From an uncultured cyanobacterium (GTDB lineage Bacteria; Cyanobacteriota; Cyanobacteriia; CACIAM-69d), in the NCBI GenBank assembly GCA_937883785.1, contig CALGDE010000133.1:1-64000 (forward strand): a DNA stretch of 64,000 nucleotides. Direction: 5' to 3'. Position numbers and translations under genes: made by a program. Every line of letters starts with the position of its first letter. Positions within the stretch are counted from its first letter, which is position 1. Under the pieces are notes generated by a model. That model ran no database searches. It was not told the DNA's origin and worked only from the letters and a program-made list of their open reading frames with translations. Shown in pieces: positions 32,299 to 51,291 of the stretch.

Positions 32299-32510
32299 TA
32301 TGGGGCGATAGTCACTTTTCTCAAAAATTTTCCACTCAAAAGCGGGCACTGAAAGTTGCCTGCCATTAACCCTACGATCTTCGCTCCGTAAGGTTTACAA
32401 CCTTTGACTTCTGTCTTTTTCCATCAGATTATTATCCACATTGAGCACTACATTCCCCACGGCGTCAGGCTTACGCTTCACGCTAAGACGCCTCTCGATA
32501 ACGCGTCCTA
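32299..32510 (-). repeat. Degenerate copy of the TA-flanked inverted-repeat element
   Basis: Read on the minus strand, the element starts TAGGACGCGTTATCGAGAGG, close to TAGGGCGTGTTATCGATTAA of the 48164 copy. It ends near a GGGGC-GATAG-TCACTTTT segment at 32301-32318 that resembles the other end type. The length is 212 bp. The terminal TA plus G is the TAG stop of the PP2C phosphatase gene. The internal similarity is weak. Confidence 0.5.
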
Positions 32511-34532
32511 GTGCAAGATTTCCATATTGGGCTGGACCTTTGCCCGCACCAACATCGCCGTAACGTTATCGTGCCCGTTGTGCTGATTCGCCAACTCAAT
32601 CAGCTGGTTCACCCCTTGATCCAAATTCGCCCGTGAACTGAGTAGGGGAGCTAGATGGGTCTGCCAGTGGTCTTCTACTAAGTCGTTGTCGCTGAGTCCG
32701 TCAGAACACATGAGCAACAGGGTATCCTCGTCAAACTCTAAAAAACGAATATCCGGCTCAATAAACTCACTGTCCCGGGGACCCAAAGCCTGGGTTAGCT
32801 GGTACGCATCGGGGCGACTGTAAGCTGCCACCGGATCAATGCCCCGTTGGATTTCCCGCTGCCCCACCTCGTGGTCCACCGTAAGCTGTTCTAGCCCGCG
32901 TCGCCGACTAAGGCGATACAGCCGACTGTCCCCCACATGGGCAACGGCAACCTTAGAGTCTTGTACTAGCACCAGCACCAAAGTGGTACCCATGCGCCCA
33001 CTGCCGGATCGCTGATCCTCTTGGTTTTCCTCAAAAATGGCGTCGTTTGCCGCATGGATGGCATTGCGAATCACCTCTTCCGACGGCAAAACAGAATCTT
33101 GCCAGTTGGTTTTGAAGTAATCGTGCAGAGTTTTTACCGCCAATTTACTAGCCACTTCGCCGCTGGCGTGACCACCCATGCCATCGCAGAGAATGTATAA
33201 ACCTTTAGCGCGAATATTGCGCCCCATGGGCATCTCCAGCTTTTGCACTTCGCTGTAAAGCCCAAAATAGTCCTCGTTGTGATCTCTTTGACGCCCAATA
33301 TCCGTCCGCCCAGACTCATCTAGACTCGCTAGGCACATGGGTAGCACCACCGTCGGTGCGTCATCATCGCCGTCATCGTCTAGCCCAGCGGCAGCGGCGA
33401 TCGCCGCCATTTCGTCAATATCTGGCGGCGGTGGCGCTTCACCCACCGCAGGTTCGCCCACCGTCACTGCGCTCACCTTCGGTGCCGCAGGCGGCGCTGG
33501 AATGCTAATTCCCATGGACGCATTCGCCGCCGCCCGCTTCGCTAAGGTTTCTGTCGCCGTCGTTGCGTTGCCTGCCTCATCCAAAGATTCAGCAATCATC
33601 TGGAGGCGATCGCGAGCCGAATCCGCCGTCAACACATCACAGTCCACCAGCGCCTTTGCCGTCGCTACCACCGCTGCTGCATCAGAACGCCCGCTGCCTT
33701 CCAACAAATCTAGCCACGCCTGCCCAAGGTCTTTTAACAATGGCGGGTCACCAGCCTCCGGCTTAGTGTAAAGCTGACAAAATACGAGCACCCGATCCTC
33801 ATCAACCCGTAAATTTTTAGGAAATAGCAGTGATCGGCAACTGTGAAACGGCTGTAGTGTTTCCCATAGCTCCAAAGAATCCCGCAGCCCGAAGAGTACC
33901 TCCAACAGCGGTGTATCGTCTTGACGCCATAGATCACTCACTAGGGGCCAGCTACTGCGATCTTCCAGAAGCAACACCTCTTTACTGGCATCTTCCCAAC
34001 AGTCATACACTTCTGGTAGTCGGGTTCCTAGCACCTCATCCAAACTGAAGTAGGGCCCCACTGCCCCTGGCAACCCCACCTCCCAGCTAGCAGTGCCTTG
34101 GTCCAAAGATGGCGGCTGTATCCCGTCGTTATCCAAAGACAAAAGCTGATCTAAAAACCTTTCTCTGTAAGGTTGGGTATCGATCACAATTCCCTGGGCG
34201 CTGTCCCCCAAAGGACCTCCTTTGAGCTCCCCTTGCAGTTGATATCGCTTATACAAACTATCCATCGATGGGATGGTAGCTTCCATTGCCAATAGCTTTT
34301 CACGACGCTCTGGAATTTCTTTGCCGCTCCAAGCCTCGTCCCCCGGTGCTGGCGTAACCACTGCCAATAGGCGATCGCCCACCGCCTCCGGACCTTGGTC
34401 GTGTTGCCCCAGGGGCAAATAGGCTTGGTCATTACCGCTAGGAGAAACGCGATGATTAAAAGCTGTGCCGCACTGCTGACAAAAATTGTTGTTGTCAGGA
34501 TTTTTAAATCGACACTGGGGGCAAATCAGCAT
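32508..34532 (-). CDS. PP2C-type serine/threonine phosphatase with N-terminal zinc ribbon
   Basis: The 674-residue product starts with a zinc-ribbon motif, CPQCRFKNPDNNNFCQQCG. A long variable region (about 30-400) includes a kinase-like or scaffold part and an Ala/Asp-rich linker. The C-terminal PP2C domain (about 405-670) has the metal-binding motifs RDHNEDYFG, LCDGMGGHASGEVASK, HVGDSRLYRL and LMCSDGLSDN. It removes phosphate from Ser/Thr residues in a Mn/Mg-dependent way. I chose the ATG at 34532 because the zinc ribbon begins there. The stop codon is formed by the end of a repeat element. Confidence 0.88.
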   Translation of the reverse strand: MLICPQCRFKNPDNNNFCQQCGTAFNHRVSPSGNDQAYLPLGQHDQGPEAVGDRLLAVVTPAPGDEAWSGKEIPERREKLLAMEATIPSMDSLYKRYQLQGELKGGPLGDSAQGIVIDTQPYRERFLDQLLSLDNDGIQPPSLDQGTASWEVGLPGAVGPYFSLDEVLGTRLPEVYDCWEDASKEVLLLEDRSSWPLVSDLWRQDDTPLLEVLFGLRDSLELWETLQPFHSCRSLLFPKNLRVDEDRVLVFCQLYTKPEAGDPPLLKDLGQAWLDLLEGSGRSDAAAVVATAKALVDCDVLTADSARDRLQMIAESLDEAGNATTATETLAKRAAANASMGISIPAPPAAPKVSAVTVGEPAVGEAPPPPDIDEMAAIAAAAGLDDDGDDDAPTVVLPMCLASLDESGRTDIGRQRDHNEDYFGLYSEVQKLEMPMGRNIRAKGLYILCDGMGGHASGEVASKLAVKTLHDYFKTNWQDSVLPSEEVIRNAIHAANDAIFEENQEDQRSGSGRMGTTLVLVLVQDSKVAVAHVGDSRLYRLSRRRGLEQLTVDHEVGQREIQRGIDPVAAYSRPDAYQLTQALGPRDSEFIEPDIRFLEFDEDTLLLMCSDGLSDNDLVEDHWQTHLAPLLSSRANLDQGVNQLIELANQHNGHDNVTAMLVRAKVQPNMEILH

Positions 34533-34847
34533 GGGACACGGTTTCTTATGAGTTGAGGACGGCTGGACAAAGAATACCCAGCGCGATGGCACCCGTTTCG
34601 AACCTATCTTAACTGCCTAATTTAGGAACGGCCGACCAGAGCGATAATCCGTAATTTCAAATGGCAGTTTTTGCAAACATTCGCCACCATCACTGCCTAT
34701 GGCCGATGCCAATGACCGTTCCCAATGCCGCCGCCCATTCAATTCAATGGGAAAACTAACAATAAAGGTCCCCTCTTATTTTCTGAAAGAAGGAACCTTT
34801 ATTCGCCCCCTGCCATCAGCGGTCAGCTACTGAGATTTTTTAACGGT

Positions 34848-35783
34848 CTAAGACTCTTCCTGGGGCTGGGAAAAATCACGATCGCCTTGATAGTTGGACA
34901 AATCTGCCAAGCGAGCTAAATTTTGCACCCCCGGGTAAAGCTGCCCTTCCACTTCCCAAGTTGGGAAACTGCGTACACCAGCCTGCTGACAGGCCTGAGG
35001 TTGAGCCTTCGCTCCTCGAGGATCGCACTCAATGTAATTCAATTTTTTCGCCGCCGTTTTACCAAACAGCTGCTTTTGATCGTGGCAGTGGGGGCACCAG
35101 TAAGCGCCGTAATACACAATGCCTGCCTCATTGAGATGGCTTGCCAATGATTCGGACGCCGGGGTCGATTCCGTAGTAACCACCGGCGGTAGGTTGCCAT
35201 CAACGGCAATGGTGGGGCGATTAATGCTGGAGTAAACCGCCGCTGTGGTGGTTAAGGTTAATACCGCCGCCACAAAGCCAATAAACAGGGGCTGCCCCAA
35301 ATCCTCCCAGCGCCGTCCCAGGGACGCGATAACAAACATACCGGCGGTGAACAGGGCAGAGGCTATGCAATAAATGCAAAATTCCTGGATTTCTGCCACC
35401 AGCAAATACATCAGGTAGGCGCTAAAGCTAGCCATGGCTGCTCCGCCCAGGAACAACCCCCAGCTGCTAAGGCTTTCAATTTTATTGCGCAGATTTTTAT
35501 CTAGCGATAGCTTGGCTGCACCCATGGGAGCTAAGGCCATAACCCCCATTCCCAGATAGCCCAGCACACCAAAAAGAGGAAGGGGAACGCCGTAAATTTC
35601 GGCGTAGCTACTGTTCAATACTTGATCGCAGCCTCCAGTGGGACAGCCAACGGCAGTGCCTGCCACTTTAGCCACCGTTAGGTAGGCGGTCAGGGAGGCA
35701 CCAGCAGCGGCAATGCCCGCGATCGCCCAGCGGCTCCACTTTTCCATGCCAATGGCGGCATTACGGTTACGGCGACGTCTCAT
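34848..35783 (-). CDS. VKOR-thioredoxin fusion (LTO1-like disulfide-forming enzyme)
   Basis: This 311-residue membrane enzyme forms disulfide bonds in lumenal or periplasmic proteins. The VKOR part (about 15-185) has several helices, the loop cysteines CPTGGCDQVLNSSYAEIYG and the quinone-side active site CIYC. The C-terminal thioredoxin-like domain (about 205-300) has the active site GAYWCPHCHDQKQLFG and the cis-proline segment RSFPTWEV. Plant LTO1 and its cyanobacterial relatives of this architecture support assembly of photosystems. It lies downstream of btpA, which is also tied to photosystem I, in the same direction. An alternative ATG lies at codon 13. Confidence 0.92.
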   Translation of the reverse strand: MRRRRNRNAAIGMEKWSRWAIAGIAAAGASLTAYLTVAKVAGTAVGCPTGGCDQVLNSSYAEIYGVPLPLFGVLGYLGMGVMALAPMGAAKLSLDKNLRNKIESLSSWGLFLGGAAMASFSAYLMYLLVAEIQEFCIYCIASALFTAGMFVIASLGRRWEDLGQPLFIGFVAAVLTLTTTAAVYSSINRPTIAVDGNLPPVVTTESTPASESLASHLNEAGIVYYGAYWCPHCHDQKQLFGKTAAKKLNYIECDPRGAKAQPQACQQAGVRSFPTWEVEGQLYPGVQNLARLADLSNYQGDRDFSQPQEES

Positions 35784-35801
35784 AATCTTGACTAGTTGTA
35801 A

Positions 35802-36038
35802 CTAATTCGTCCTAACTAACTCACTGGAGCTATCGTTAACGACCTTTGAAATTTCTAAAGTCGCTTTCCCTACGGTAACAGTTTCCCCATTTAAGGTGCG
35901 GTTATTTCTTCCCCCTGGCGTTTCCTGGCATTCACAACAGTTCCACTGTGGTCCATTGGGGCGATCAGCAAATTTAAAGATCACACTGCAGCCAGAGTTC
36001 ACCCCTAAGAAACCAAGAAACCCGCCTCCCAAATCCAC
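35802..36038 (-). CDS. Possible small Cys-rich protein between btpA and the VKOR gene
   Basis: This 78-codon frame has a GTG start 16 bases downstream of btpA and a stop 18 bases before the VKOR fusion start. The product contains NCCECQETPGG and a strand-like ETVTVGKATLEISKVV. The tight spacing on both sides argues for a real small gene within an operon; the GTG start and the lack of a recognised family argue against. No function can be assigned. Confidence 0.35.
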   Translation of the reverse strand: MDLGGGFLGFLGVNSGCSVIFKFADRPNGPQWNCCECQETPGGRNNRTLNGETVTVGKATLEISKVVNDSSSELVRTN

Positions 36039-36054
36039 GAATTTTCCGAAAAAC

Positions 36055-36924
36055 CTACGACGACAATGTCGTTAAAGGGGGCGCACTGAGGTGACCATTG
36101 CTGTTACCCAACGTGGGTGGCCCTTGGTAGGGCAAACTTGTCGCTTCCATAAATTGATGGACGCGATTGGGGTCCACCGGCAGATGAATTTTGCCGCGTC
36201 GCTTCAAGGAGCTAGCCACAATGACTCCATCAGCAATAGAAAGCAATTGCGCCACATTATCCACATCAGCTCCGCTTCCTACAAATAAAGGCGTTTCCCC
36301 CGCCGCTGATCGCGCCACCACTAAGTCGTCCACGTTGGGGGGACTGCCCGTGGCCGAACCGGACAAAATAACTCCGTCCGCCAAACCCCGATCAATGGTG
36401 TCCCGCACCGCCACCGCCATTTGATCTGTACTCAGAGGTTGAGCGTGCTTCACCAATACATCCGCCAAAATTTTCACGTCGCAGCCCAGCTCCCGCCGGT
36501 AGCGCAATAGATCGTAAGCGCATCCTTCGATAACCCCCTGATCCGTTGCCATTGCCCCCGACAGTACATTCACTCGAATAAAGTGGGCACCGACGCAACT
36601 GGCGATCGCCATCGCCCCCAACGCATCATTCCTAAGAACATTCACTCCCACAGGGACCGGCACCAAGCTTTGAATACGCTGCACAATCACCGTCATGGCA
36701 CTGATGACAGCCGGATCAACAGGGCCCTTGGGAAAGGGGGCATCGCAAAAATTTTCCACCAAAATCCCGCTGATTCCCCCAGCGGCCAACGCAGCCGCCT
36801 CCTGCTCAGCACGATCAATCACAGTCTTGAGGCTGCCACCCCACCGAGGAGATGTTGGCAACGGCAAAAGGTGCACAACGCCAATGCTGGGCTTTGGAAC
36901 TGAAAACAAACGACTCAAATCCAC
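36055..36924 (-). CDS. btpA: BtpA family photosystem I biogenesis protein
   Basis: BtpA is a TIM-barrel-like protein on the cytoplasmic side of the thylakoid membrane, needed for accumulation of photosystem I reaction-centre proteins. The 289-residue product shows the family start IGVVHLLPLPTSPRWGG, GISGILVENFCDAPF, GVNVLRNDALGAMAIA and LSGSATGSPPNVDDL, all typical. The start is GTG at 36924, preceded by AAAGG. The last 25 residues are variable. A possible small gene and the VKOR-Trx gene follow on the same strand, which suggests a photosystem-assembly operon. Confidence 0.92.
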   Translation of the reverse strand: MDLSRLFSVPKPSIGVVHLLPLPTSPRWGGSLKTVIDRAEQEAAALAAGGISGILVENFCDAPFPKGPVDPAVISAMTVIVQRIQSLVPVPVGVNVLRNDALGAMAIASCVGAHFIRVNVLSGAMATDQGVIEGCAYDLLRYRRELGCDVKILADVLVKHAQPLSTDQMAVAVRDTIDRGLADGVILSGSATGSPPNVDDLVVARSAAGETPLFVGSGADVDNVAQLLSIADGVIVASSLKRRGKIHLPVDPNRVHQFMEATSLPYQGPPTLGNSNGHLSAPPLTTLSS

Positions 36925-38588
36925 TGAACCTTTATTTTTTACGGATTAATACGCTACCCATACCGACGGGCTTTTACTAGGGACCGTGGTTAGTTAAACC
37001 TCAAAGCCAACACTGGTCAGAGTTTCGTCCCTAGCATCTTTCGTCCAAAAGGGTGTGTATCGTTGACTGCACAAGACTTTTGGCTTCTCGCTGATTACAG
37101 CCCTATCGAACTTTAATTTTCACAATAAGGTTTCGGCGTAAACAACGCTCAAGTAAAGGTGTCCCGGCTTAAGTACGTTAAGTAGAACGCACTCAAACAG
37201 AAGGTGCTTTATCAATGCGCTGAGTAAACACCGCCAAATTTAGAATGCCCGGATTTATTGTATCGACCTATTGACAAATGTACTGACAAGTTGGCTTTGC
37301 CCTGTTGTGACGTGGATTATCACAACGGGTTATGGACCTCTTTCCCTAAGGGTTTGAGGCGAAAAAAACGGGATAAAAGGCATGGAAAACATTGAGGAAC
37401 TCTCTGCCGTTACAAAGTCCTTTCGAGTTTCTAAATTCCGTAAGAACTGTTGCCAATGAAGCTTTAAATTCAATGACTGAATGGGTTACTACCGCTCAAT
37501 GCGTATTGCCTTGAAGGAAGCTTATGGCTACCTGCTACTGAAGTAGACATTTGGAAAGTGGGTTCTGCCCATTAAGCGGAGTCGGTGTGCAAGCTTGTCC
37601 TGCATGAAGCGTAAGACGCTACCTTTCCCACCTCACGAAACTTCTGGACCTGGATTAACGACATGTCTTGAGAACGCCAAGGTTTTTTCTCTCTAAACCC
37701 TATACCCAAGGTCTCATAACTAACTAAAAGAGGCTTTTGGGAAGCATTTTCCTATGTTGATTCGTAAGCAAAGGAACTTTTAAAAAATCAAGAAAATACG
37801 AGACTAACCACAAATTAGAATTTTTCAACTATTCTGAAACGTTAGATTTTTCGAGTGCACATGGGGATAACATAAGCAAGGTTTACTGGGGGCTAGTCAA
37901 GAACATCACCGGAATTTTGGCGATTGGAAGGCGATCGCTGAAAATTACTTGTTCAATCTCCTGTTGCTGCCAGTTGCTGACGGTGGACTGCGGAGGTCTT
38001 TGCTCTCAGGCGTATTTTTCCTGGCTTCCCCGCTCCAGAATTCTACGGCGTTTACGTTCCTGCAAATTCGAAGGCTAAAATCTATGATTCCCAGAATTCT
38101 TAGTATTTCTTCGGATAATACTTAGACTTATGAACGTTTTTAATGTAGCGTTTAGTACTGGCTTTTGAAGTCGTCGCCGATGGGCGCTAAGTCGCTAGGC
38201 GCAAAGAGCGCATCTGCTCCGAAAGGCGCATGCCGACCATGATGAGAACGCGCAATATTACTTAATTTCAAGGTTAAAAGATTTACTTTTTTTGTTGAAA
38301 TAGAATTGTGCCTATTATTATTAAGCTAAGAAAGAAGGCTAGCTAGTTTTTGTCAGCCCTACGATCTGCCTGTTCGCCCTTGTGGCGGAAGTGGATTATG
38401 AGTTCTTAGATAGTGATGCTGCCATTAGATCTAAGGGTGAATTCGACGGCGGTGTGATAAATCTTTCAGAGAATAAGGACCTGGCTGCAACTGGGTGACG
38501 ACAAAAAATGCTAACTTCTTGCTAACTTACGATGCGGGGGTGGGGTATCATCGTTTGCTATTTCGCTGCTAGTTCTTAGCAATTCACC
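36925..38588. other. 1.66-kb stretch without a recognisable gene
   Basis: This is the longest gene-free stretch in the window. It is more AT-rich than its surroundings, contains few HIP1 sites and no open frame that I can support. A near-perfect hairpin lies at about 37301-37331 (CCCTGTTGTGA facing TCACAACGGG). A GGCGC-rich segment that could fold lies at about 38180-38245, and TGCTAACTT is repeated at 38508-38526. I recognise no tRNA, ribozyme, riboswitch or known cyanobacterial sRNA motif. It divides divergent genes (btpA and the NB-ARC gene), so two promoters lie inside. Confidence 0.5.
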
Positions 38589-40241
38589 TTGACTGCACTG
38601 GAGAGATTGGTTTTGGTTCCTGACGATTTTCTGCTCTACATCACCAAGCAACACGGCGTTTCTAATACGGAGTTGGAGGTGCTTTCCGCTGCGTTGAAAG
38701 GGGAGGCGATGAGTTCCATTTCCAATCGCTTGGGAATCCGTCCCGAGGCTGCCCGTAAGCGGCTGGGGGAAGTGTACAAAAAGTTTAAAATTGGTGGCGC
38801 TGGTCCCGGTAAATTGGCCAAGCTGCAGCAAATCCTGGTGTCCCAGTACCAGAGTTATCAAGCTGGGGGTGGGGCGATGGTGCCCAGTCAAGACGTGATT
38901 GTGGAGGAGGAAATTCCCGACTCCACGGAAGACTGGGGTGAGGCTCCTGATACGAGTAAGTTCTTTGGGCGCAGTGAAGTTCTAGGTGATTTAAAAAGCT
39001 GGGTGAGTTCTGGAGATTGTCGACTAATTGCCCTGTTGGGGATTGGCGGTATCGGTAAAACTACCCTGGCGGTAAAGCTGGCGCGGGATTTGGCAGAGGG
39101 GGATGAGTTTCAGTTTGTGGTGTGGCGATCGCTAAGAAGGGCGGCGTCTCCCCGGGAAACTATCCATCGGCTTATTCGATTTGTGGCTCGCCAAAAGCGA
39201 ATGTCCATTCCTGATCGCGCCCACGACCGTATTTCTCTGTTGCTAGACCTACTGCGTCAGAATCGGTGTTTGGTGGTGCTGGACAACTGGGAATCGGTGC
39301 TTCAGGAGGGAGAGATTACCGGGCACTATAAGGAAGGCATGGAAGAGTATCGGGATTTATTGCGACGACTGGGCGAGGAAAGCCATAACAGTTGCGTCGT
39401 GATTACCAGTGCCGAGAAGCCGAAGGAAATTGCAATTTTAGATGGACAGTCAATGCCGGTGCGGGTGCTGGAAGTGCCGCCATTGACCCCTAAGGAAGGG
39501 GGCGAGATATTCCGTGCCAAGCGCCTTTCGGAGGAAAAACTGTGGCCGGAATTGATTGAATCCTATCGTGGTAATCCGCTGACCCTGAAAATTGTGTCCA
39601 ATACGATTTTGGAACTATTTAGTGGCAAGGTGTCGGAGTTCCTGAAGGAATCCACCCTGGTCTTTGGAGATATTAAAGAGCTGCTTCGTCAGCAGTTTGA
39701 GCGCCTGTCGGACTTGGAAAAAAGTATTCTATATTGGCTCTCCATTGAGCATGAGCCCATTTCCCTAAGTCGTTTGCGCAATGACTTGGTGTTGCCCTCT
39801 ACCCATTCAGAGTTGTTGGAGGCGCTGGAGTCTTTGGGGCGGCGATCGCTAATTGAGCGGGCACCGGGGGAAGGCAGCGCGTTATTTACACTGCAGCCGG
39901 TGGTGCTGGAGTATGTGGGGCTGGACTTAGCGGAGAGAGCCACGGGAGAGCTACAAGATTTAATTCGCACCCAGCGGGTGGAGCGCCTGGAAGTATTCCG
40001 TAACCATTCCCTATTGCGTGATGAGGAAGATGGGGAAAGTGGAGGCGAGGGTGTTCCGCCCCTGGAGGATGTGCTTAACCGGTTACGGCGCAGTATTCGC
40101 AACGATCACCAAATGGTGGAGTTTTTGGAAATTACGCTGGAGATTCTGAAGGGTAAGTTCCCACTAGAAGTGGGCTATGCCGCTGACAATGTGGAGAATC
40201 TTCTGGGGAGTTTACGCCAGGAGATGAGTAGCTACGCTTAG
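38589..40241 (+). CDS. NB-ARC (STAND) ATPase with LuxR-like HTH, no effector repeats
   Basis: The protein has 550 residues. Residues 25-85 form a helix-turn-helix region ending RKRLGEVYKKFKIGGAGPGK, as in cyanobacterial NB-ARC-WD40 proteins. The NB-ARC switch ATPase follows: Walker A LLGIGGIGKTTLA (about 148-160), Walker B CLVVLDNWES (about 226) and the GLPL-type motif GNPLTLKIV (about 328). The C-terminal helical part ends with FPLEVGYAADNVENLLGSL. In the relatives I know, this segment is followed by pentapeptide and WD40 repeats; here the frame stops 15 residues later. The only possible start is TTG at 38589, as an in-frame stop precedes it. The TAG stop is made by a repeat-element end. Confidence 0.88.
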   Translation: MTALERLVLVPDDFLLYITKQHGVSNTELEVLSAALKGEAMSSISNRLGIRPEAARKRLGEVYKKFKIGGAGPGKLAKLQQILVSQYQSYQAGGGAMVPSQDVIVEEEIPDSTEDWGEAPDTSKFFGRSEVLGDLKSWVSSGDCRLIALLGIGGIGKTTLAVKLARDLAEGDEFQFVVWRSLRRAASPRETIHRLIRFVARQKRMSIPDRAHDRISLLLDLLRQNRCLVVLDNWESVLQEGEITGHYKEGMEEYRDLLRRLGEESHNSCVVITSAEKPKEIAILDGQSMPVRVLEVPPLTPKEGGEIFRAKRLSEEKLWPELIESYRGNPLTLKIVSNTILELFSGKVSEFLKESTLVFGDIKELLRQQFERLSDLEKSILYWLSIEHEPISLSRLRNDLVLPSTHSELLEALESLGRRSLIERAPGEGSALFTLQPVVLEYVGLDLAERATGELQDLIRTQRVERLEVFRNHSLLRDEEDGESGGEGVPPLEDVLNRLRRSIRNDHQMVEFLEITLEILKGKFPLEVGYAADNVENLLGSLRQEMSSYA

Positions 40242-40366
40242 GGCTGTCATTACTTGAGCTTGCAGTTCTGTGGCAGTGGAGGACATCCCCCAATAGGCTT
40301 TGTTTTGAAAGGGCGTGAACTCTTAACTATGTAAGGCTTCTGGCACTTAATTGATGACACGCCCTA
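40239..40366 (-). repeat. Clear copy of the TA-flanked inverted-repeat element
   Basis: This 128-bp element is flanked by TA on each side. On the minus strand it reads TAGGGCGTGTCATCAATTAA, then GTGCCAGAAGCC, then the family core CCCTTTCAAAACAAAG and ATTGGGGG, and ends TAATGACAGCCCTA. The ends and core match the copies at 48164 and 50411. It has no coding capacity. Its first bases supply the stop codon of the NB-ARC gene. Confidence 0.85.
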
Positions 40367-40402
40367 GGCACAATTGGTATATGGCTATGTGTTCCCGTCA
40401 GC

Positions 40403-41803: not shown

Positions 41804-41834
41804 AAAGCCGCCGATTTCGCGGAACTTTACTGGA

Positions 41835-41988
41835 AACGTTAGCTCAGTCGCCTCCCCCCTTACCAAAGGGGGGACTGAGGGGGGATCCTTACCATTCCCC
41901 GTCACCAAAAATTCTGGCTGTGGGCTTTAGCTTTGGAGGATCCCCCCAACCCCCCTTGGTAAGGGGGGCTTTTCGTTGAACTAACGTT
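41835..41988. repeat. Long GC-rich inverted repeat
   Basis: Two arms of about 55 bases face each other across a centre of about 45 bases. Each arm has AACGTTAG, then CCCCCCTTACCAA(A)GGGGGG, then GGGGGGATCC. The arms match closely but not perfectly. The structure lies between the acyltransferase start and the WD40 gene. Shorter relatives lie at 16805-16885 and perhaps 58187-58219. It can fold into a large hairpin or cruciform. Confidence 0.88.
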
Positions 41989-42076
41989 TGGAGCGTTTTT
42001 TCTATTTAAGGGGGCGGCAGCGAGGATCGCCACCAAAACGGACAGATAACCGGTTGTCTGCCCATATTCCCTGCCG

Positions 42077-44311
42077 ATGCGGCATCCAATTTATAAACTG
42101 CCTATGCCCTCCGATAGCGAGGGAGTCGCCCGAACTATTCTTAAATTTCACAAAAAAGTTGGGGATGGGGCGATGGTTAAGTTTGCGCGGGGGAAGGGGG
42201 GCGCAGTGGCTGTGGCGATCGCCGTCATGCTAGGTGGGGGGATTTTTTGGAAAACCCACTCCAGTTTCCAGGCGGACGAGGGGGGGCGATCGCTCCAAAC
42301 CCCAGCCCTGCCCAATATCGACAACGTTACCGGCACCCCACGCTTCCACGCCCGCCGCAGTCCTAAAGGCTATACCAAGGGCAACGTGGAAAGCATTAGC
42401 TTTAGCCCCGATGGGCGCACCATCCTTTCCGCCGCCGGGCGTGCCACTGTCAAACTATGGGACAAAGCTACGGGCAGAGAATTGGTTACGGCTGAAGAAG
42501 GTCGGCTGCTCCAAACCCCAATCAACGGTATCCGCTTCAGTCCCGATGGCACCACCTTTGTGGGTGCTGTGGCTGCCCACTTACGCAGCAAGTCCGGCGA
42601 CGAAGAGTTGGCGGTTGTTCACCAATGGAATGTAAAAACCGGCGAAATAGTGCGCACTTTTGAGGGGCAACATCGCTCCATTGATGAGGTTAGCTTTAGT
42701 CCCGACGGCACTATGATTCTTTCCGTTTCTACCCACGGCATTGCCGAGCTGTGGGATGTGGAAACTGGCGACCTGATACGCAATATTGAGTTTTGCTATG
42801 GGGGCGATTGCACCGTGGAGGAGGCTGAGTTGCAGGACCATATGGGTCATCGGGGATTTATTCACGACGCCAGCTTCAGCCCCGACGGCGCCACCATCCT
42901 TTCCGCGTCCCTGGACGGCACCGTTAAGCTGTGGGACCCGGATACTGGCGACCTGGTGCGCACCTTGGGGGAATATTCTGACAACGAGGACGACGGTGTT
43001 ATCAGCGCCCATTTCAGTCCCGATGGCACCATTATCGCCGCTTCAAATAACTCTATGATCGAACTATGGAACGGGGAAACTGGCGAACGGTTATATCGGG
43101 AGGAAGACTATAACTTTGTGACGGGTTCTGTGGCGTTTAATCCTAATGGCTCCACGATCGCGATCGCCGCTGACTTTTCTTTCTCCAGCAAAGTCAAAAT
43201 TCTGAGCGCAAAAACTGGAGAAGTGATGCGTACCTTCGATGCAGAGCGACTTTCCACTGGGAGTTTGGCGTTTAGCCCCAACGGCAACACCCTCGCCCTG
43301 GGGAATTCCACTGGCATTGTTTCCCTGTGGAATCCCGAAACGGGGCAAAGATTGCGCACCTTAGCTCAGGATGGATCTTCTGTGGATGCGATCGCATTCA
43401 GTCCCGATGGCAATACGCTGGCGATCGGTCAGGGGCGAGCTGTGCGGTTTTGGAACCTGGCAACTGGCGAAGAATTAAGCACCGTTGCGGCCCATACGGG
43501 AAGTGTTTCCAGCGTCGCTTTTGGTGATGACGATAAAACAATTATTTCTAGCGCCGGAAACACGACAAAATCTTTTGATGCGATGACGGGAAAAGCACTG
43601 TCCCAAGGGGAGGATGCTGCGTCTTCCAAAGCTCAAAGCCAAAATGACGACTTCCCTGCCATCATTGCCGACAAACACCTTGCAGAAGATCGGCATTGGG
43701 TGCCCGTCATTAGGGACCAGTCTGGCAGGGTACTGCGCACGTTCCAGCGCCATGCTGCCGAGGCGGCGGACGTAACCCTAAGCCCGGGGGGTAATCTGGT
43801 TGCTGCTGTTCACCGGGACGGGGTGGTGAAATTGTGGAATGCTGAAACCGGTGCTGAGGTTCACCAGTTCCAGCATCGGAACCTGGACTTTGCTTGGGGA
43901 ATAAGCTTTAGCGCAGACGGTAAGATCCTCGCGTCTTTATCTGGTGAATCGATTCAAATTTGGGACGTGGAAACGGGCAAGGCAATCAGCACTTTGGAGG
44001 ACACCGGTTTTATCACTTCCGATCAGGCGACGTTTAGTGCTGACGGCACGATGGTGGCGGCGTTTGATAACACTGGGCTCATTATGGTTTGGGAGGTGGA
44101 TACGGGCAGGCTATTGGGGCTGCTTGGTGAGGCGAGCGGGGAGTCTGGCTGGGCCACCGCTTTGCAGTTTAATTCTGACGGCTCGGCGATCGCGGCAGGC
44201 TACGAAGACGGGTCAGTGAAGGCGTGGGATCTTAATCGCGATTCCTTAAGGCAAATGTTGGATGAGGCCCAGAGCCGCGTTTCGCAAATTAGCGTTGAAA
44301 GTACGCGATAA
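42077..44311 (+). CDS. Membrane-anchored WD40-repeat protein
   Basis: The 744-residue product has a short cytoplasmic N-terminus, one transmembrane helix (about 42-58) and then about fourteen WD40 repeats from residue 95 to the end. A typical repeat is FSPDGTTILSASLDGTVKLWDPDTGDLVRTL. Two seven-bladed propellers would fit this length. In many cyanobacteria such repeats are fused to an HTH-NB-ARC module; here that module is a separate gene, 1.8 kb upstream on the same strand. A role as sensor or scaffold is inferred; no ligand is evident. Confidence 0.85.
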   Translation: MRHPIYKLPMPSDSEGVARTILKFHKKVGDGAMVKFARGKGGAVAVAIAVMLGGGIFWKTHSSFQADEGGRSLQTPALPNIDNVTGTPRFHARRSPKGYTKGNVESISFSPDGRTILSAAGRATVKLWDKATGRELVTAEEGRLLQTPINGIRFSPDGTTFVGAVAAHLRSKSGDEELAVVHQWNVKTGEIVRTFEGQHRSIDEVSFSPDGTMILSVSTHGIAELWDVETGDLIRNIEFCYGGDCTVEEAELQDHMGHRGFIHDASFSPDGATILSASLDGTVKLWDPDTGDLVRTLGEYSDNEDDGVISAHFSPDGTIIAASNNSMIELWNGETGERLYREEDYNFVTGSVAFNPNGSTIAIAADFSFSSKVKILSAKTGEVMRTFDAERLSTGSLAFSPNGNTLALGNSTGIVSLWNPETGQRLRTLAQDGSSVDAIAFSPDGNTLAIGQGRAVRFWNLATGEELSTVAAHTGSVSSVAFGDDDKTIISSAGNTTKSFDAMTGKALSQGEDAASSKAQSQNDDFPAIIADKHLAEDRHWVPVIRDQSGRVLRTFQRHAAEAADVTLSPGGNLVAAVHRDGVVKLWNAETGAEVHQFQHRNLDFAWGISFSADGKILASLSGESIQIWDVETGKAISTLEDTGFITSDQATFSADGTMVAAFDNTGLIMVWEVDTGRLLGLLGEASGESGWATALQFNSDGSAIAAGYEDGSVKAWDLNRDSLRQMLDEAQSRVSQISVESTR

Positions 44312-44461
44312 AGAACCGGGTGAAAAATTGGCGGACACGTCAGGGCGGCGGGCTATCCATTTAAATGGTGTAGTATTAACCGTTGAATTACTCGTTTTTT
44401 ATGTGGCGGATTGGTGGGCGATCCGACGGAAAACCGCCACCTAAAACCGCCGGAAAACCCC

Positions 44462-46231
44462 ATGAACAGCATCGTCAGCACACTTCCCAAAGCGACCAAC
44501 GTTAAGCCGGCAAAAATTACGCGGGTGCTGCCGGAGTCGATCGCCGAGGAGTTGGGCTTTGAACCGGGCGATGCCATTGTGAGCATTAACGGGGAGCGAC
44601 CGCGCGATTTAATCGACTACAACTTTTTGTGCGCCGACGAGTACTTGCGCCTAGAGATTTTAGACGCAAAGGACCAGCAGCATATTGTTGAGCTGGAGAA
44701 GGATTTTGATTCGGAGCTGGGGCTGGAGTTTGAAACGGCGGTTTTTGATGGGCTTTTACAGTGCAATAATCGCTGCCCCTTTTGCTTTATTGACCAGCAG
44801 CCGCCGGGTAAACGGGAGAGCTTGTATTTAAAAGACGACGATTATCGCCTGAGTTTTTTATACGGGTCGTATCTGACCCTAACCAACTTGACCCGCTCGT
44901 CATGGGACCGCATTGAGCAACTGCGCCTGTCGCCCTTGTATGTGTCGGTGCACGCCACGGAGCCGGCGGTGCGGGAAAAGCTGCTGAAAAATGACCGGGC
45001 GGGGGAGATTCTGAATCAGCTTCAGTGGTTTCGCGATCGCCGCCTGCAAATCCACGCCCAGGTGGTCCTATGTCCGGGCATCAACGACGGGGCGCACCTG
45101 GAAACCACCCTGCGAGATTTGGCGAATTTTTACAATGCGGACCCCAATCGTCCCCAGTCGGCCCAGTCGGCGGATTTGGGAGCGCGGGCGGCAGGGTTGC
45201 GATCGCGGGCTTGGGCATTGGGTGAGGGCGGTGAGGGCAGCGTGGCCAGCTTTCACGATGACAGCCAAACCGACGATGCTCAGGATAAGGGCAACGAAGG
45301 TTTTGAGATGGAAGCGTTTGATGATTTTGAGGGCGGAAATTTTGATGGGGGGGATGGGGATTTCGATGAAATGCCCGATGGCCCTGCCTATGAAGCCGCC
45401 TATGAAAATGCCTATGAAATTGGCGACGACGAAGAGGAGTGGGACGACGAAGATTGGGATGAAGGCGAACTTAATGACAGCGACGACTGGCTGCCCCCTA
45501 CAGTGACCTCTGTGGCGGTGGTGCCGGTGGGATTGACGCGATTTCGTCCCGATTTAGATGAGCTGGATCCGGTGTCCCCTGCCAAGGCTCGTGAGGTGAT
45601 TGGTCAGGTGCAGGCGCTTCAGGCGGAATTTCGCGAAGCCCTGGGATCCACTTTTGTGTGGCTGGCGGATGAGTGGTTTGTGATTGCTGGTCAGGAGCTA
45701 CCGCCCCTGGAAGCTTACGAGAATTTTCCCCAAATTGATAATGGCGTAGGATCCATCCGCCTCTTTGTAGACCGCTTTGAACAGGCGATCGCCCAACGCA
45801 TCAGCACCTTAACCGCCGAACAGGGACCGCTCCAGCTCCCCCAGCCTCGGCGCTATACCTGGGTGGTGGGCAATATGGTTAAGCTCGCCTTCGCCCCCCT
45901 GGTGGATCGGCTCAACACCATCGACGGGCTGACCGTAACCCTCGCCGCCCTAAACTCCGACTACTGGGGACAGCAGTTTACGGTAACCGGCTTGCTTACC
46001 GGCAGCGATCTGCTGAAAAATCTTCAGGACACGGACCTAGGCGATGGCATTTTGCTGCCCTCGTTGATGTTGAAACACGGCGACCCACGCTTTTTGGACG
46101 ATATGACCGTCGGGGAATTAAGCGACTCCCTAGGAGTTCCCATTACCATCATCACCGACGCCGACTCTCTAGTGGACAATTGCCTGGGGCGGACCACCAG
46201 CGGCAAACCGGGCAACCACACCCAGGGCTAG
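44462..46231 (+). CDS. PDZ-radical SAM protein (DUF512, TIGR03279 type) with acidic insertion
   Basis: The 589-residue product begins with a PDZ-like domain (about 10-70: ITRVLPESIAEELGFEPGD, IVSINGERP). Next is a radical SAM segment with a [4Fe-4S] ligand motif CNNRCPFCFIDQQPPG near residue 100, and the DUF512 C-terminal domain beginning VAVVPVGLTRFRPDLDEL. The family is conserved in cyanobacteria; its reaction is not known to me. A stretch at about residues 225-342, very rich in Asp/Glu with repeated YE motifs, interrupts the usual sequence and makes the protein about 120 residues longer than typical. I chose the ATG at 44462. Confidence 0.88.
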   Translation: MNSIVSTLPKATNVKPAKITRVLPESIAEELGFEPGDAIVSINGERPRDLIDYNFLCADEYLRLEILDAKDQQHIVELEKDFDSELGLEFETAVFDGLLQCNNRCPFCFIDQQPPGKRESLYLKDDDYRLSFLYGSYLTLTNLTRSSWDRIEQLRLSPLYVSVHATEPAVREKLLKNDRAGEILNQLQWFRDRRLQIHAQVVLCPGINDGAHLETTLRDLANFYNADPNRPQSAQSADLGARAAGLRSRAWALGEGGEGSVASFHDDSQTDDAQDKGNEGFEMEAFDDFEGGNFDGGDGDFDEMPDGPAYEAAYENAYEIGDDEEEWDDEDWDEGELNDSDDWLPPTVTSVAVVPVGLTRFRPDLDELDPVSPAKAREVIGQVQALQAEFREALGSTFVWLADEWFVIAGQELPPLEAYENFPQIDNGVGSIRLFVDRFEQAIAQRISTLTAEQGPLQLPQPRRYTWVVGNMVKLAFAPLVDRLNTIDGLTVTLAALNSDYWGQQFTVTGLLTGSDLLKNLQDTDLGDGILLPSLMLKHGDPRFLDDMTVGELSDSLGVPITIITDADSLVDNCLGRTTSGKPGNHTQG

Positions 46232-46332
46232 ACACCAGCGTTGGGTTTAAACAATATCCAGTTCGCCGCGGGATAAATTCAGCTATACTACTTGCACGCA
46301 AAATAGTGACCAATGTCGCTGAAATGCAGTTA

Positions 46333-46406
46333 CGGGATGTAGCGCAGCTTGGTAGCGCGCCTGCTTTGGGAGCAGGATGCCGCAGGTTCAAATCCTGTCA
46401 TCCCGA
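46333..46406 (+). tRNA. tRNA-Pro (anticodon TGG)
   Basis: The cloverleaf is complete: acceptor stem CGGGATG/CATCCCG with discriminator A, D arm AGCGCAGCTTGGTAGCGC, anticodon stem-loop CCTGC-TTTGGGA-GCAGG giving anticodon TGG, and T arm GCAGG-TTCAAAT-CCTGT. CCA is not encoded. There is no intron. Confidence 0.96.
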
Positions 46407-46490
46407 TTGTTATGTTGTTATATTTTTCCCCTAGCGTAAGCAACACTCAGCTAATCGCCGTGTGGCCTATGCTCAATGCCTCCTGCGAGT

Positions 46491-46610
46491 CTATTTCCGA
46501 CTAATGGTGTCCAGCGATGCCTTGGTTTGCCAAATAATGATTCCGGTAAACGCCAAGGTGAAAGCAATTTGGAATACGAAAATGCCGGGATAGGTCTCAA
46601 AGGTGATCAT
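46491..46610 (-). CDS. 39-residue single-helix membrane protein
   Basis: The frame reads MITFETYPGIFVFQIAF, then TLAFTGIIIWQTKASL, and ends DTISRK. One hydrophobic helix (about 9-27) is flanked by a short acidic N-terminus and a basic C-terminus, the look of small photosystem, cytochrome b6f or NDH subunits. It does not match PsbX, PsbY, PsbM, PetL, PetM, PetN, PsaM or Psb30 as I know them. It is 81 bases downstream of the DUF5331 gene on the same strand. I see no strong ribosome-binding site. I consider it a probable real gene of unknown function. Confidence 0.5.
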   Translation of the reverse strand: MITFETYPGIFVFQIAFTLAFTGIIIWQTKASLDTISRK

Positions 46611-46691
46611 AAATCTGACGGTATTTGCAGCTAACGTTTATTTAAAGACAGGCTTAGCCGGTCGGGACTAACTAAGCTCCCACGATTGTAG

Positions 46692-47321
46692 CTACGCCGT
46701 AAATTTTCGGCGAGGTCGGGGGGGGAGCGGTCGGGGACGATCGCGCCCTTCACAGGTACTGTCCACCGCGTTAGCCCGTCGGGTTACCTCCGTGGTGGAC
46801 TGGTTGCCGCCGCTGCGGGGAATGGGACGAGGGGGACGTTGAAGCACCTGGTCCGGGCTGGTGGGGGGAGTAGGGCGATTTCCAGCCCCTGGATTACTAG
46901 CCACGCCTGCTTTACGAGGTGTATCCGCAGGCATTGCCTCAGGCTGCCGCTGTTGGAAAAAGTGGCGACCCCCCATCTCCATTGATGGCTCCGCCGCACT
47001 GGGCAAGCGATGGGGCGCTATCTCTTGCCCAGGCAGGGCAGCCCCCTCTGGCAAGGTGCCCAATAGTCTTTCGGGATTAAAATTCAGCCCCAACGCCTCC
47101 ACCATCTGGTCAGGATCAGAATTTAAGTCTGCCAATAGGGGCAAAATCTGGGTCAATTCAGGGTTCAGCACTGATATGGTCGCCAGGATAAAGCTGGAGG
47201 AGGGGCGCCGTTGATCCTTGTGGGTAATCCAAATCTCCATGCGAGAGAGCCAGTGGCGATTATCGCGATAATAAGTTAGCCACATCTGGCGCAAATTGTG
47301 ACGCAGTTGCTCGGGGTTCAT
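46692..47321 (-). CDS. DUF5331 family protein
   Basis: This is a 209-residue cyanobacterial protein. The conserved N-terminal domain (about 1-90) has LRHNLRQMWLTYYRDNRHWL, WITHKDQRRPSSSFILATIS and PDQMVEALGLNFNPERLL, which I recognise as DUF5331. The rest is a Pro/Arg-rich, probably disordered tail ending in basic residues. The function is unknown. A 39-residue membrane protein may be co-transcribed downstream. Confidence 0.8.
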   Translation of the reverse strand: MNPEQLRHNLRQMWLTYYRDNRHWLSRMEIWITHKDQRRPSSSFILATISVLNPELTQILPLLADLNSDPDQMVEALGLNFNPERLLGTLPEGAALPGQEIAPHRLPSAAEPSMEMGGRHFFQQRQPEAMPADTPRKAGVASNPGAGNRPTPPTSPDQVLQRPPRPIPRSGGNQSTTEVTRRANAVDSTCEGRDRPRPLPPRPRRKFTA

Positions 47322-47601
47322 GGGGAAACGGTATTCCTTGTTGAAGTCTCAATTGCTGGAGACGATGTTCTTCCAGTATCCGAGGCAGATCAGCTTCCGC
47401 TTCGCCAGCAATTGTTTGCTAATTATTATTTATTTGTGAATTATCCCTGGATTGGGGCTGAGTTTAACGACTATGTGGCAAATTAAACACAATTTATCGG
47501 CACATTTTTACGGACACGCCTCCGAGTGTTTATAACAGTGCTAAAGATTGCGATCGCAACAGCGCCAAAACAAGTTCTAAAACAGCGGAGCAAGCCCCAT
47601 T

Positions 47602-48024
47602 ATGTCGTTCGAGGTTATCCTCATTTTGCTGCTGGCTCTGATTTTCTTTGCCCAGTGGGTCGATGGCCTGCTGCGGGAACGGAAGAAGCGCCTTTCAAAA
47701 GATGCCCAGTCAGCCGCATTCAAAGCAAAAATCAAAGCTCAAAAAGAGTCCTTGAAAGGCATCCTTGGCGAGTTCCAGAAAGATCCCCTCGACGTTCAAC
47801 TCCAGTCCGAGTTGTTGCAATCTATGGCGGTACAGGGTAACCCAGGTGGCACTGGGCTAGCCTACAACGTCGTTTTGGCTGCCTTGGCAGAAAATCCCAC
47901 CGCCGGTATTTTGAAGCAGCTTGCCCTTGACGCAGGGCGAATCCATTTCAGTGAAATGCGTGGTGGTGAAGCTAGTGTGGACGACGAACAGCGAATTATG
48001 AACGATATTGCGGTGCGCACCTAA
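47602..48024 (+). CDS. Membrane-anchored small protein, unknown function
   Basis: The 140-residue product has one N-terminal helix (about 3-19: VILILLLALIFFAQWV). A charged helical segment (LRERKKRLSKDAQSAAFKAK) and a soluble C-terminal part of about 90 residues follow. I recognise no domain. Good start context (ATG 47602) and composition like its neighbours support a real gene. It stands alone, with a repeat element and a terminator downstream. Confidence 0.65.
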   Translation: MSFEVILILLLALIFFAQWVDGLLRERKKRLSKDAQSAAFKAKIKAQKESLKGILGEFQKDPLDVQLQSELLQSMAVQGNPGGTGLAYNVVLAALAENPTAGILKQLALDAGRIHFSEMRGGEASVDDEQRIMNDIAVRT

Positions 48025-48163
48025 TTGTTTGAGCTCTTATAGAGAGGGTTGGGCAAAAATGACTGCGTGGGCATGTCAGTGGCGAAGACAAACCCCAGCG
48101 TGCCTGACTAGCCAATGAATACTGAGTGAGGATGATCCCTGTGTGTTTTTATCCAGAATTGAT

Positions 48164-48321
48164 TAGGGCGTGTTATCGATTAAGCGCCAGAATCTTTGCA
48201 CAGTGGGGAGTCCACCTCCTTTCACGACAAAGCATATTGGGAGCTGAGATTGGGAGCTGAGATTTTTGTGGTTACTGGCTTTGAGGTTTGAATTTTGAGA
48301 TTTAAATGATGACAGCCCCTA
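48164..48321 (+). repeat. Clear copy of the TA-flanked inverted-repeat element
   Basis: This 158-bp element starts TAGGGCGTGTTATCGATTAA then GCGCCAGAATC. It has the core CCTTTCACGACAAAGCATAT then TGGGAGCTGAG and ends TTAAATGATGACAGCCCCTA. A perfect 13-bp tandem duplication (TTGGGAGCTGAGA twice, near 48237-48262) accounts for some of its extra length. It has no coding capacity. Confidence 0.85.
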
Positions 48322-48324
48322 GGA

Positions 48325-48394
48325 CCTATGCGAAACGGGCATAACCTCTTCCCCGCTTCTTTGGAGAGGTGGGGGATGGGCATAGGGCTTTTTT
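48325..48394 (+). terminator. Possible terminator after the repeat element
   Basis: CCTATGC at 48325-48331 can pair with GCATAGG at 48380-48386, with a further GC-rich pairing inside, followed by GC and six T. It could end transcription of the 47602 gene. The long loop lowers confidence. Confidence 0.5.
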
Positions 48395-48460
48395 GCGCTT
48401 CTTGCCCCTTGCTTGAAGGGATGAATTCGATGAATTTTGAATGGGTAAAAAATAAACAAT

Positions 48461-48494
48461 AAAAACGCGAAACCCTGATGTTTAGGGTTTCGCG
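48461..48494 (-). terminator. Terminator of chlP
   Basis: Read on the minus strand, a perfect 11-bp stem (CGCGAAACCCT with AGGGTTTCGCG) and a 7-base loop are followed by TTTTT. It lies about 90 bases downstream of the chlP stop. Confidence 0.85.
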
Positions 48495-48581
48495 ATCGCC
48501 AAAAACCGAACAGTAATCAGCAAGATAGAGGGCAACTAAGAGCGTTAAGTAAGAACCCCGAAGAGTTAGTTGTTTTACTCC

Positions 48582-49823
48582 CTAACGGTTTGCCATTTGT
48601 TTCGGCGCCAGGGCATAGCCACGCATTAGACTACCGATTGTCTTCGCAGTGATTTTTAGCTGCACAAAAGGATTTGCCGGCACCACCGTCTTGTACAGGT
48701 AGCTTTCGAACGTTAGCTTTTGTACATCGATATCAGAGCACATTTCCACAAATGCTTCCCGAGTGGCATCGGACCGGTAGAACACCCGTTGCAGCACGTC
48801 TAGTACCAGATAGGTCAAGCCATACTCGCGATCCCAACGCTTGATGTACTTCTTCAAATCTGCCTCAGTGGGAACTTTTGCCCCTTGCTCAGACATTTCC
48901 ACAATGGTCTCAGCGCACATGCGTCCAGACTTAGCCGCAAAGTAAATGCCTTCACCGGAAGACTTGGTAACAGTACCGGCAGCGTCGCCCACCAGGGCAA
49001 CCCGACCTACCACACGCCGAGGACGGGGATGCTCAGGAATAGGATGAGCTTCCACTTTGATGATTTCGCCACCTTCTAGGCGCTTGGCTGCCCGCTTGCG
49101 GATACCCGCCTGTAGCTTCTTGATGCTGGCTTGGTTGCCGCGCATGGTGCCAGTGCCCACTGCCACGTGGTCATACTTAGGGAATACCCACGCATAGAAG
49201 TCGGGAGACACATCGTCGCCCACGTACATTTCCGCCAGGTCTTCGTAGTAATCCATCTTGTCCTGGGGGATGCGAATGCGCTCTTGGAACGCTACCGCAT
49301 AGTTGTAGTCGCCGGCGTCGATCGCCTTAGCTACACGAGAGTTAGCACCATCGGCACCAATCACCAAGTCCACCTGAAGGGTTTTGGCTTCACCCTGGAT
49401 CTTGCCACCAGAATGGTCGGCGTAGTGCAAGGTGTAGGGATCCTTATCGTTAGTAGGCAGCTCCAACTTATGGACCGTGCCATTGATCAGCTTGGCCCCC
49501 AGCTTTTCGGCGCGATCGCGCATAAACCCATCAAGAATTTCCCGACGGCACATGCCAATGTACTCGTCATCTTTCAAGGTGCCACCGATGTCGACTTCCA
49601 CGTTAGACGGGGAAATCATCTTCATCTTCCGCACGCGACGATCAATAATTTCTGGCGGCAATTCAAACTCACCCACCATGCACAGGGGAATTGCACCACC
49701 ACAAGGCTTGGCGTTGTCTAACTTGCGCTCGAAGATGTAGGTCTCAATACCCGCTTTAACTAGCGTCTCGGCGGCAGAGGAACCCGCCGGACCACCTCCT
49801 ACAACAGCTACCCGTAACGTCAC
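48582..49823 (-). CDS. chlP: Geranylgeranyl reductase
   Basis: ChlP reduces the geranylgeranyl group to phytyl for chlorophyll a and, in part, for tocopherol and phylloquinone, using NADPH at the thylakoid membrane. The 413-residue product opens with the FAD-binding motif VAVVGGGPAGSSAAETLVKAG and has GADGANSRVAKAID near residue 155 and LVGDAAGTVTKSSGEGIYFA near residue 275, all conserved in the family. The start is GTG at 49823, with AGGAGA seven bases upstream. A strong terminator lies downstream. The gene is divergent from the DUF751-rbfA region. Confidence 0.95.
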   Translation of the reverse strand: MTLRVAVVGGGPAGSSAAETLVKAGIETYIFERKLDNAKPCGGAIPLCMVGEFELPPEIIDRRVRKMKMISPSNVEVDIGGTLKDDEYIGMCRREILDGFMRDRAEKLGAKLINGTVHKLELPTNDKDPYTLHYADHSGGKIQGEAKTLQVDLVIGADGANSRVAKAIDAGDYNYAVAFQERIRIPQDKMDYYEDLAEMYVGDDVSPDFYAWVFPKYDHVAVGTGTMRGNQASIKKLQAGIRKRAAKRLEGGEIIKVEAHPIPEHPRPRRVVGRVALVGDAAGTVTKSSGEGIYFAAKSGRMCAETIVEMSEQGAKVPTEADLKKYIKRWDREYGLTYLVLDVLQRVFYRSDATREAFVEMCSDIDVQKLTFESYLYKTVVPANPFVQLKITAKTIGSLMRGYALAPKQMANR

Positions 49824-50197
49824 AGGCGTTCTCCTAAATGTCTGGCTTTATCGACAATTGGTGACAAATCTATCACAGCCCTTCGGCGTCCCATTACGAG
49901 ACTTAATGCTCTGTCATGCTCGCGCAATAGAGTGTAACGAGAGGGGAGCAATGGCTTGCAATTTTTGCGAATTCTCTATCCCGTTTTGCTCCTTCGGAAA
50001 TCCTTGCTTAGCAAGAGTTGCGCTAAATAACCTTTCCTTCCAAACTGGTTAATAGGCTCGAAAGTGGATTCCAGCAAAAGCTTAGTCAAAACAGACTAGT
50101 GGACAGCAGCTATTGCCTATGCACGGTTGCTTGAAAAATTGCTTGAAACAACATTGAAACAATCACAAAGGGCAGAGCACCGTTAGCTAGAGGCACT
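49824..50197. other. Divergent promoter region between chlP and the DUF751 gene
   Basis: There are about 370 bases with no supported gene. The promoter of chlP and that of the DUF751-rbfA unit should be here. I cannot place them reliably. Confidence 0.4.
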
Positions 50198-50413
50198 ATG
50201 AGCGAGTTTTTCAATAACGTCCTACGCTACCCCCGCTTCCTAATTTCCTTTTCTTTGGGGGTAGTTTTAACCCTGCTGTCTCCGTTCACCCGGTTAATGC
50301 AGGACCGGAAGAGCGCTGTTTTGGTGGTCAGCTTGTTTGTATCTTCCCTGATATTTATTGTATTTACCCTGCGGGCCATGCTGGGACTGAGCGTTGTTGA
50401 GTTTGCGTCCTAA
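50198..50413 (+). CDS. DUF751 small membrane protein
   Basis: The 71-residue product starts with NNVLRYPRFLISFSLGVVLT and ends with VFTLRAMLGL plus a few residues, the pattern I know for cyanobacterial DUF751. It has two hydrophobic helices (about 14-32 and 42-64). This family commonly sits directly upstream of rbfA, as here. The function is unknown. The TAA stop is made by the end of a repeat element that fills the gap to rbfA. Confidence 0.85.
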   Translation: MSEFFNNVLRYPRFLISFSLGVVLTLLSPFTRLMQDRKSAVLVVSLFVSSLIFIVFTLRAMLGLSVVEFAS

Positions 50414-50542
50414 AGCGCGTCATCAATTAATTGCTAGAAGCTTTCCGCAGTGAAGAATATATCCCCTTTCAAAACAAATATATTAGGGGCTAAACTCTTC
50501 GCGGCTAATCGCTTTTAGACTTAAATGATGACAGTTCCCCTA
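50411..50542 (+). repeat. Clear copy of the TA-flanked inverted-repeat element
   Basis: This 132-bp element starts TAAAGCGCGTCATCAATTAA then TTGCTAGAAGC. It has the core CCCCTTTCAAAACAAATATA then TTAGGGGCTAAAC and ends TTAAATGATGACAGTTCCCCTA. Its first three bases are the stop codon of the DUF751 gene. It separates that gene from rbfA. Confidence 0.85.
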
Positions 50543-50666: not shown

Positions 50667-51050
50667 ATGGCTACCAGTCGTCGTGTGGCCCGCGTTTCTG
50701 AACTAGTTCGCCGGGAAGTTAGTCAAATGCTGACTCGCGGCATCAAAGATGATCGCGTGGGTGTGGGTATGGCTAGCGTTACCAATGTGGTGGTATCGGG
50801 AGATCTACAGCACGCCAAAATTTACGTCAGTGTTTACGGCACCGAAGAGGCAAAGGCGGCAACCATGGAGGGGCTAGCTTCGGCTACGGGGTATGTGCGT
50901 GGGGAGCTGGGACGGCGATTGCAGTTACGGCGCACTCCTGAGGTGGTCTTTATTGAGGACCGTGCGCTGGAGCAGGGGGATCAGGTGCTGAATTTGTTGA
51001 GTAAGTTGCGGCGCGATCGCGAAGATGAAACGCCCCAGGCAGAAACCTAG
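50667..51050 (+). CDS. rbfA: Ribosome-binding factor A
   Basis: RbfA binds the 30S precursor and helps maturation of 16S rRNA, most needed in the cold. The 127-residue product has [37 protein letters not shown] and [18 protein letters not shown], all diagnostic for the KH-like RbfA fold. The length is normal. AAGGAGAAAGT precedes the ATG, a strong ribosome-binding site. The 3' end of the coding region forms one arm of a predicted terminator. Confidence 0.96.
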
Positions 51051-51112: not shown

Positions 51113-51291
51113 GGGTCTAAGAGGGCTTAGCTTTTACTCACCACGGTGTGAAGCTTCTGGCATCTAACTGACCATGGATACTGACCATAGATGAAGACTC
51201 CAGCCCCCCTTGTGGAAATCGCTCCCCCCGGGGAGAGAGACTTGGGCGAGGATTCTAGGAATTTGCGTGGGGCACTGATAATCCTAGCCGC

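Follow-up and report, generated by a model that had tools for sequence, protein, structure and literature searches.

The window, by which the whole stretch of 64,000 nucleotides on contig C133 of an uncultured cyanobacterium (GCA_937883785.1; 4.84 Mb in 167 contigs) is meant, raises the question why the borders of one small repeat provide the stop codons of several genes. With a probability of roughly 85%, the answer lies in the target motif of the element, YTAR, combined with tolerance of insertions behind genes, and not in the recognition of stop codons.

Firm cases were found at the cpeZ-like, NB-ARC and DUF751 genes, where the first-pass annotation had also seen the element end form the stop codon, and each of the three copies was recovered with E <= 5e-10 in the profile search of the window, the matches at NB-ARC and DUF751 spanning 40241-40366 and 50413-50538. 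A full-length copy (40239..40366, minus strand, 89.4 bits) abuts with its R end on the NB-ARC/NACHT gene (38613..40241, plus strand, PF00931/PF05729) and supplies its stop TAG at 40239-40241; the empty site reads TTAG and the reconstructed codon is TAG. The stop TAA (50411-50413) of the DUF751 gene (50198..50413, plus strand, PF05421) is supplied by the L end of another full-length copy (50411..50541, plus strand, 90.9 bits), for which the empty site is CTAG and the reconstructed codon TAG. Behind the HEAT-repeat, phycobilin-lyase-like gene which had been called cpeZ (16116..16718, minus strand, identified by its HEAT repeats), the copy is composite (15706..16118, minus strand, 34.9 bits for 16049-16118), with the L end at 16118, a lone R end at 15706 and about 280 nt of extra foreign sequence inside. 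The stop TAG at 16116-16118 is made up of the first TA of this copy and its G, and the reconstructed empty-site codon was TAT. The composite copy also holds a second repeat-like stretch (GCGTCAGCGATCGCTGAGGGTCATCG...), which was found inside a copy on C111 as well and suggests that another family of small repeats is nested within this one.

The fourth gene of the first-pass annotation encodes a PP2C phosphatase (32508..34532, minus strand, PF13672), and here the proposal was weaker: the stop TAG at 32508-32510 is bordered by what is probably the degenerate left half of a copy (32430..32510, minus strand), with a core match of only 7.3 bits over 24 nt and a degraded left end. The letters at all four stops named in that annotation were confirmed. 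A case absent from that annotation was found at rbfA (50667..51050, plus strand, TIGR00082, 2.7e-35), whose stop TAG at 51048-51050 is formed by the R end of a copy with a decayed L end (51048..51171, minus strand, 53.9 bits). Three further copies lie away from stop codons, at 18809..18924 (plus strand, 27.2 bits), at 36978..37105 (minus strand, 46.4 bits) and at 48164..48321 (plus strand, 94.3 bits), the last being full-length and intergenic with an internal duplication. Four of the seven clear copies (15706/16049-16118, 18809, 36978, 40239, 48164, 50411 and 51048) supply a stop.

Judged by sequence, the repeats form a MITE family that descends from an IS5-family (IS427-like) insertion sequence, most of the features expected of such a member having been found. 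The consensus measures 131 bp, carries no transposase gene, begins TAGGGCGTGTCATCAATTAAGTGCCAGAAGCC and finishes TTTAAATGATGACAGCCCCTA; the ends of the family are TAGGGCGTGTCATCAATTAA and TAGGGGCTGTCATCATTTAA, which differ slightly from one another. A single long hairpin was obtained on folding the consensus (-51.6 kcal/mol, z = -5.15), as expected from inverted ends, and it may serve as a structure in 3' UTRs. An nhmmer profile made from 91 copies was used, and the counts cover 2.51 Mb, about half of the host genome. In this part the family has 258 distinct copies, a density of about 103 per Mb, and 164 of these are close to full length. When up to three mismatches were allowed, the L-end pattern matched 173 times in the genome and the reversed control 0 times. 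For the intact copies, 137 raw hits corresponded to 84 distinct copies, as the self-complementary ends match both strands.

The first-pass annotation had proposed that insertion targets TA and duplicates it. The duplication stood, and the target proved to be narrower: the duplicated TA lies inside YTAR, which fitted 75 of the 84 intact copies, those that keep a TA on either side (CTAG 30, TTAG 20, CTAA 14, TTAA 11) against a YTAR share of about 31% among all genomic TA sites. In other bacteria, 12 of 12 IS copies and 28 of 30 MITE and other copies had YTAR flanks. The first element base was independent of the flanking base among the MITE copies, which argues for a duplication of 2 bp (TA); a 4-bp target duplication was ruled out on the same ground. 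The motif restricts where in a gene the element can be met. Since any TAR read in frame is a stop codon, a YTAR insertion meets codon positions 1-2 only at the stop of a gene, and an in-frame YTAR target is nearly always the native stop because the Tyr codons TAC and TAT do not fit. With G or A as the first base of the element (G in 220 and A in 44 of 274 profile hits), a stop that is hit is rebuilt as TAG or TAA, as had been predicted from the window.

On this basis, an IS5-family transposase would move the MITE in trans, at present or formerly, and insert it into YTAR with duplication of the central TA. A TAA or TAG stop preceded by a pyrimidine offers such a site, and TA plus the first element base, G or A, would give TAG or TAA again; the insertion would be invisible to the protein and would be retained like any noncoding insertion. 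The rule is simple: elements which target YTAR and start with G or A can hide at the stops of gene-dense genomes, restoring the stop as they insert.

Genome-wide, the TAA or TAG stop of a called gene was formed by a MITE border in 41 of 250 usable copies, those of which one end or both could be used (16%; 2.51 Mb). This was compared with 11.7 expected from plain noncoding TA density (P = 2e-11) and 17.6 from YTAR-weighted density (P = 1e-6). Among the 84 copies that retain both TAs, for which genes were called on reconstructed empty sites, 13 occupied native stops where 6.7 were expected (P = 0.02). The genome-wide count, suggested earlier as a check against TA density, was far from random, and these values leave hardly any room for pure chance, by which the four or five cases of the window would be noise around a low rate set by TA density. 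Such a reading could draw on the window itself, where five of eight copies lie at stops when the PP2C copy is included, far above the genome rate of 16% (P = 0.004, post hoc); genome-wide it is refuted. The richness of the window in stop-border copies is probably sampling noise, and the earlier impression that "four of six" exceeded chance was right in direction and overstated in size.

The excess was not confined to stops, and the distance profile accounts for most of it. Behind genes, the ratio of observed to expected copies was 2.3 both at the stop and at 1-10 nt, 1.3 at 11-30 nt, 2.2 at 31-60 nt and 1.7 at 61-100 nt, and beyond 100 nt copies were depleted (0.7, then 0.4), although expected numbers far from genes are inflated because the simple dicodon model used for gene calling missed some genes. 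Within 30 nt of gene starts the ratio was about half. The enrichment at stops (2.3-fold) did not differ significantly from that at other YTAR sites up to 100 nt downstream of genes (1.8-fold, P = 0.095), and for this reason there is no evidence of special targeting of stops. A slight extra preference is possible, the excess at stops being slightly above that of the neighbouring sites. It is improbable that stops attract or keep insertions beyond what their YTAR content explains, with the element acting there as a 3' UTR hairpin that is useful, or at any rate harmless, to the host gene. Slightly less probable still is that stops are preferred or positively selected, the elements being kept more often as 3' hairpins for termination or mRNA-end protection. 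The long, stable hairpin of the consensus and the somewhat higher ratio at stops speak for such a preference, whereas the difference from other near-3' sites was not significant and convergent gene pairs were not in excess among the 84 intact copies (11 against 12.2 expected).

Under the reading preferred here, target motif plus tolerance behind genes, stops are one class among several YTAR sites at which insertion is tolerated there, and the excess over a uniform expectation would reflect general retention just downstream of genes, probably through selection against insertions near promoters and starts. We only infer selection as the cause of this 3'-proximal excess, because the 84 intact copies showed no gene-orientation bias. 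The lack of bias counts against a simple tolerance model, which might predict one.

Stop-supplying copies were also seen in other genomes, for 7 of 25 MITE and 3 of 14 IS copies. It is predicted that IS5-type elements elsewhere will often adjoin genes exactly at the stop, as already seen in these bacteria, and annotators should expect such arrangements. In a Chlamydiia MAG (L228, 784 onward), one element with MITE ends appears to stop two convergent ORFs (175 and 253 aa), one per border.

Whether the insertion is silent for the protein was judged for the four genes from alignment ranges and open-frame lengths of orthologues. The PP2C orthologues with full-length alignments reached residues 671-674 of 674, and same-family orthologues of the NB-ARC protein reached 538-541 of 542; their open frames measure 543-558, compared with 553 here. 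In the sister species the DUF751 alignment covered all 71 residues (1-71), and within the family it extended to 67-69. The best distant orthologues of the cpeZ-like protein aligned from residue 1 to 195-196 of 200, and the match in the sister species ended at 174, in a shorter frame. At another stop site, C132:52001, the sister species G001 (C540) aligned without interruption across the stop. The MITE consensus had no match in genomes G002-G005. The comparison of C-termini, which the first-pass annotation had recommended, bore out its claim that an element can sit beside a gene without changing the protein: the alignments reached within a few residues of the ends, also in relatives showing no copies. 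As far as such alignments tell, the host proteins at the tested stop-border copies are not truncated relative to their orthologues.

Where the distal TA of a stop-border copy could be read, 15 of 17 copies reconstruct to TAA or TAG and two to TAT or TAC. The 15 of 17 are consistent with native stops and are not independent proof of them, because the YTAR motif itself demands a purine at that position. It has to be weighed whether the element inserted inside genes, creating stops and truncating the proteins at its border. The two TAT/TAC codons and the TAT of the composite cpeZ copy point that way, and some stop-border cases may be truncations or decayed ends. As a general account truncation is very unlikely, since it is opposed by the other 15 reconstructed codons, by the exclusion of in-frame sense TAY codons under YTAR and by orthologues which end at about the same residue, a contradiction for the NB-ARC, DUF751 and PP2C genes. 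A stop-border copy alone is no evidence of a truncated protein.

Evidence for the partner of the MITE came from other bacteria. The exact 20-bp L end bounds insertion sequences of 813-847 bp, with 0-3 mismatches at the opposite end, and elements of this size with MITE ends were seen in Acinetobacter, Psychrobacter, Polaromonas and others. Transposase content was examined in one of these copies, L211, which has two overlapping ORFs with matches to the NF033580 IS5 transposase (above cut-off), PF13340 (DUF4096) and PF01609 (DDE_Tnp_1). A Tc1/mariner (IS630) type had been considered for the MITE and was dropped after the IS5 partner had come to light. An inverted repeat end identical over 20 bp is present across several phyla (L206-L285), including cyanobacteria, Acinetobacter, Psychrobacter, Nitrospira, Verrucomicrobia and others, a distribution that suggests, at the level of end sequences, a widely spread IS5-type group. 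In 2.51 Mb of the host genome, no autonomous copy with MITE ends was found, and lone L and R ends paired at 260-2600 nt enclosed no convincing transposase-bearing copy, the enclosed gene calls being partly identified. The genome-wide matches to PF13340 and PF13586 in the host were only fragments of another IS5-type element; its ends differ from those of the MITE, and these DUF4096 transposase fragments were rejected as the partner. Such fragments lie at contig ends of G000 (L202, 1-400; L203, 1-350) with ends AGAGGACGTCTGAAAAG, which is where an IS that interrupts the assembly would be expected. Possibly the host partner belongs to the past, or is of an unlisted transposase type in the remaining half of the genome.

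Several known systems resemble the family in part. The IS427 group of the IS5 family comprises elements of 832-865 bp with mostly 2-bp duplications, some having two overlapping ORFs and a frameshift motif (PMC3281130). The insertion sequences with MITE ends are similar in their 813-847 bp, the duplicated TA and the two overlapping ORFs in L211, and their assignment to this group would rest on size, duplication and ORF layout rather than phylogeny. The MITE itself differs from the group as a 131-bp element without a transposase gene and with slightly unequal ends. E. coli IS5 has the target motif YTAR (PMC10359306); it shares this target with the MITE and has a 4-bp duplication, whereas the MITE duplicates TA only (PMC10359306, PMC11677980). 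MITEPsy1 of Pseudomonas syringae is a 100-nt MITE with an IS partner which inserts at CTAG or YTAA (PMC3189936). Unlike the 131-bp MITE, it has a 4-nt duplication, other ends and six copies, and placement at stop codons is not described in the available part of that report (PMC3189936). RUP and ERIC are likewise short non-autonomous repeats inserted at TA; RUP differs in being linked to an IS630-type transposase, and ERIC in that it can extend or fuse to reading frames, whereas the MITE only rebuilds the stop (PMC2229807, PMC2759123).

The closest precedent for the effect on genes is the BOX repeat of Streptococcus pneumoniae, which provides 36 genes with their stop codon at the very 3' end with no good evidence of truncation, and is overrepresented behind genes, as explained by tolerance there (PMC3049150). 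BOX is comparable to the MITE as a small interspersed repeat which gives gene stops without clear truncation; it is unlike the MITE in its unrelated sequence and in that the stop effect is not tied to a target motif in the sections consulted (PMC3049150), whereas for the MITE it is explained by YTAR and the TA duplication. The BOX-like behaviour, a repeat border serving as host-gene stop without truncation, was found here for 41 borders, with the C-termini of four genes compared. Stop-supplying repeats have their precedent in BOX and the YTAR rule is what this analysis adds, although an earlier description of the family or the rule may exist in subscription journals, most of which lay outside the literature search.

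In the sister species G001, which belongs to the same genus, the best copies showed 89-92% identity to the consensus compared with 85-89% in the host genome, values that suggest more recent activity there. A short repeat (GACTTACGCA..ACATGCTG) was observed in or beside several MITE copies of G000 (C140 ~18600, C111 ~54888 and C108 ~5828). Just past the window, a near-consensus copy (C133:64344-64473) gives a 377-aa gene its stop TAG; the gene ends at 64346.
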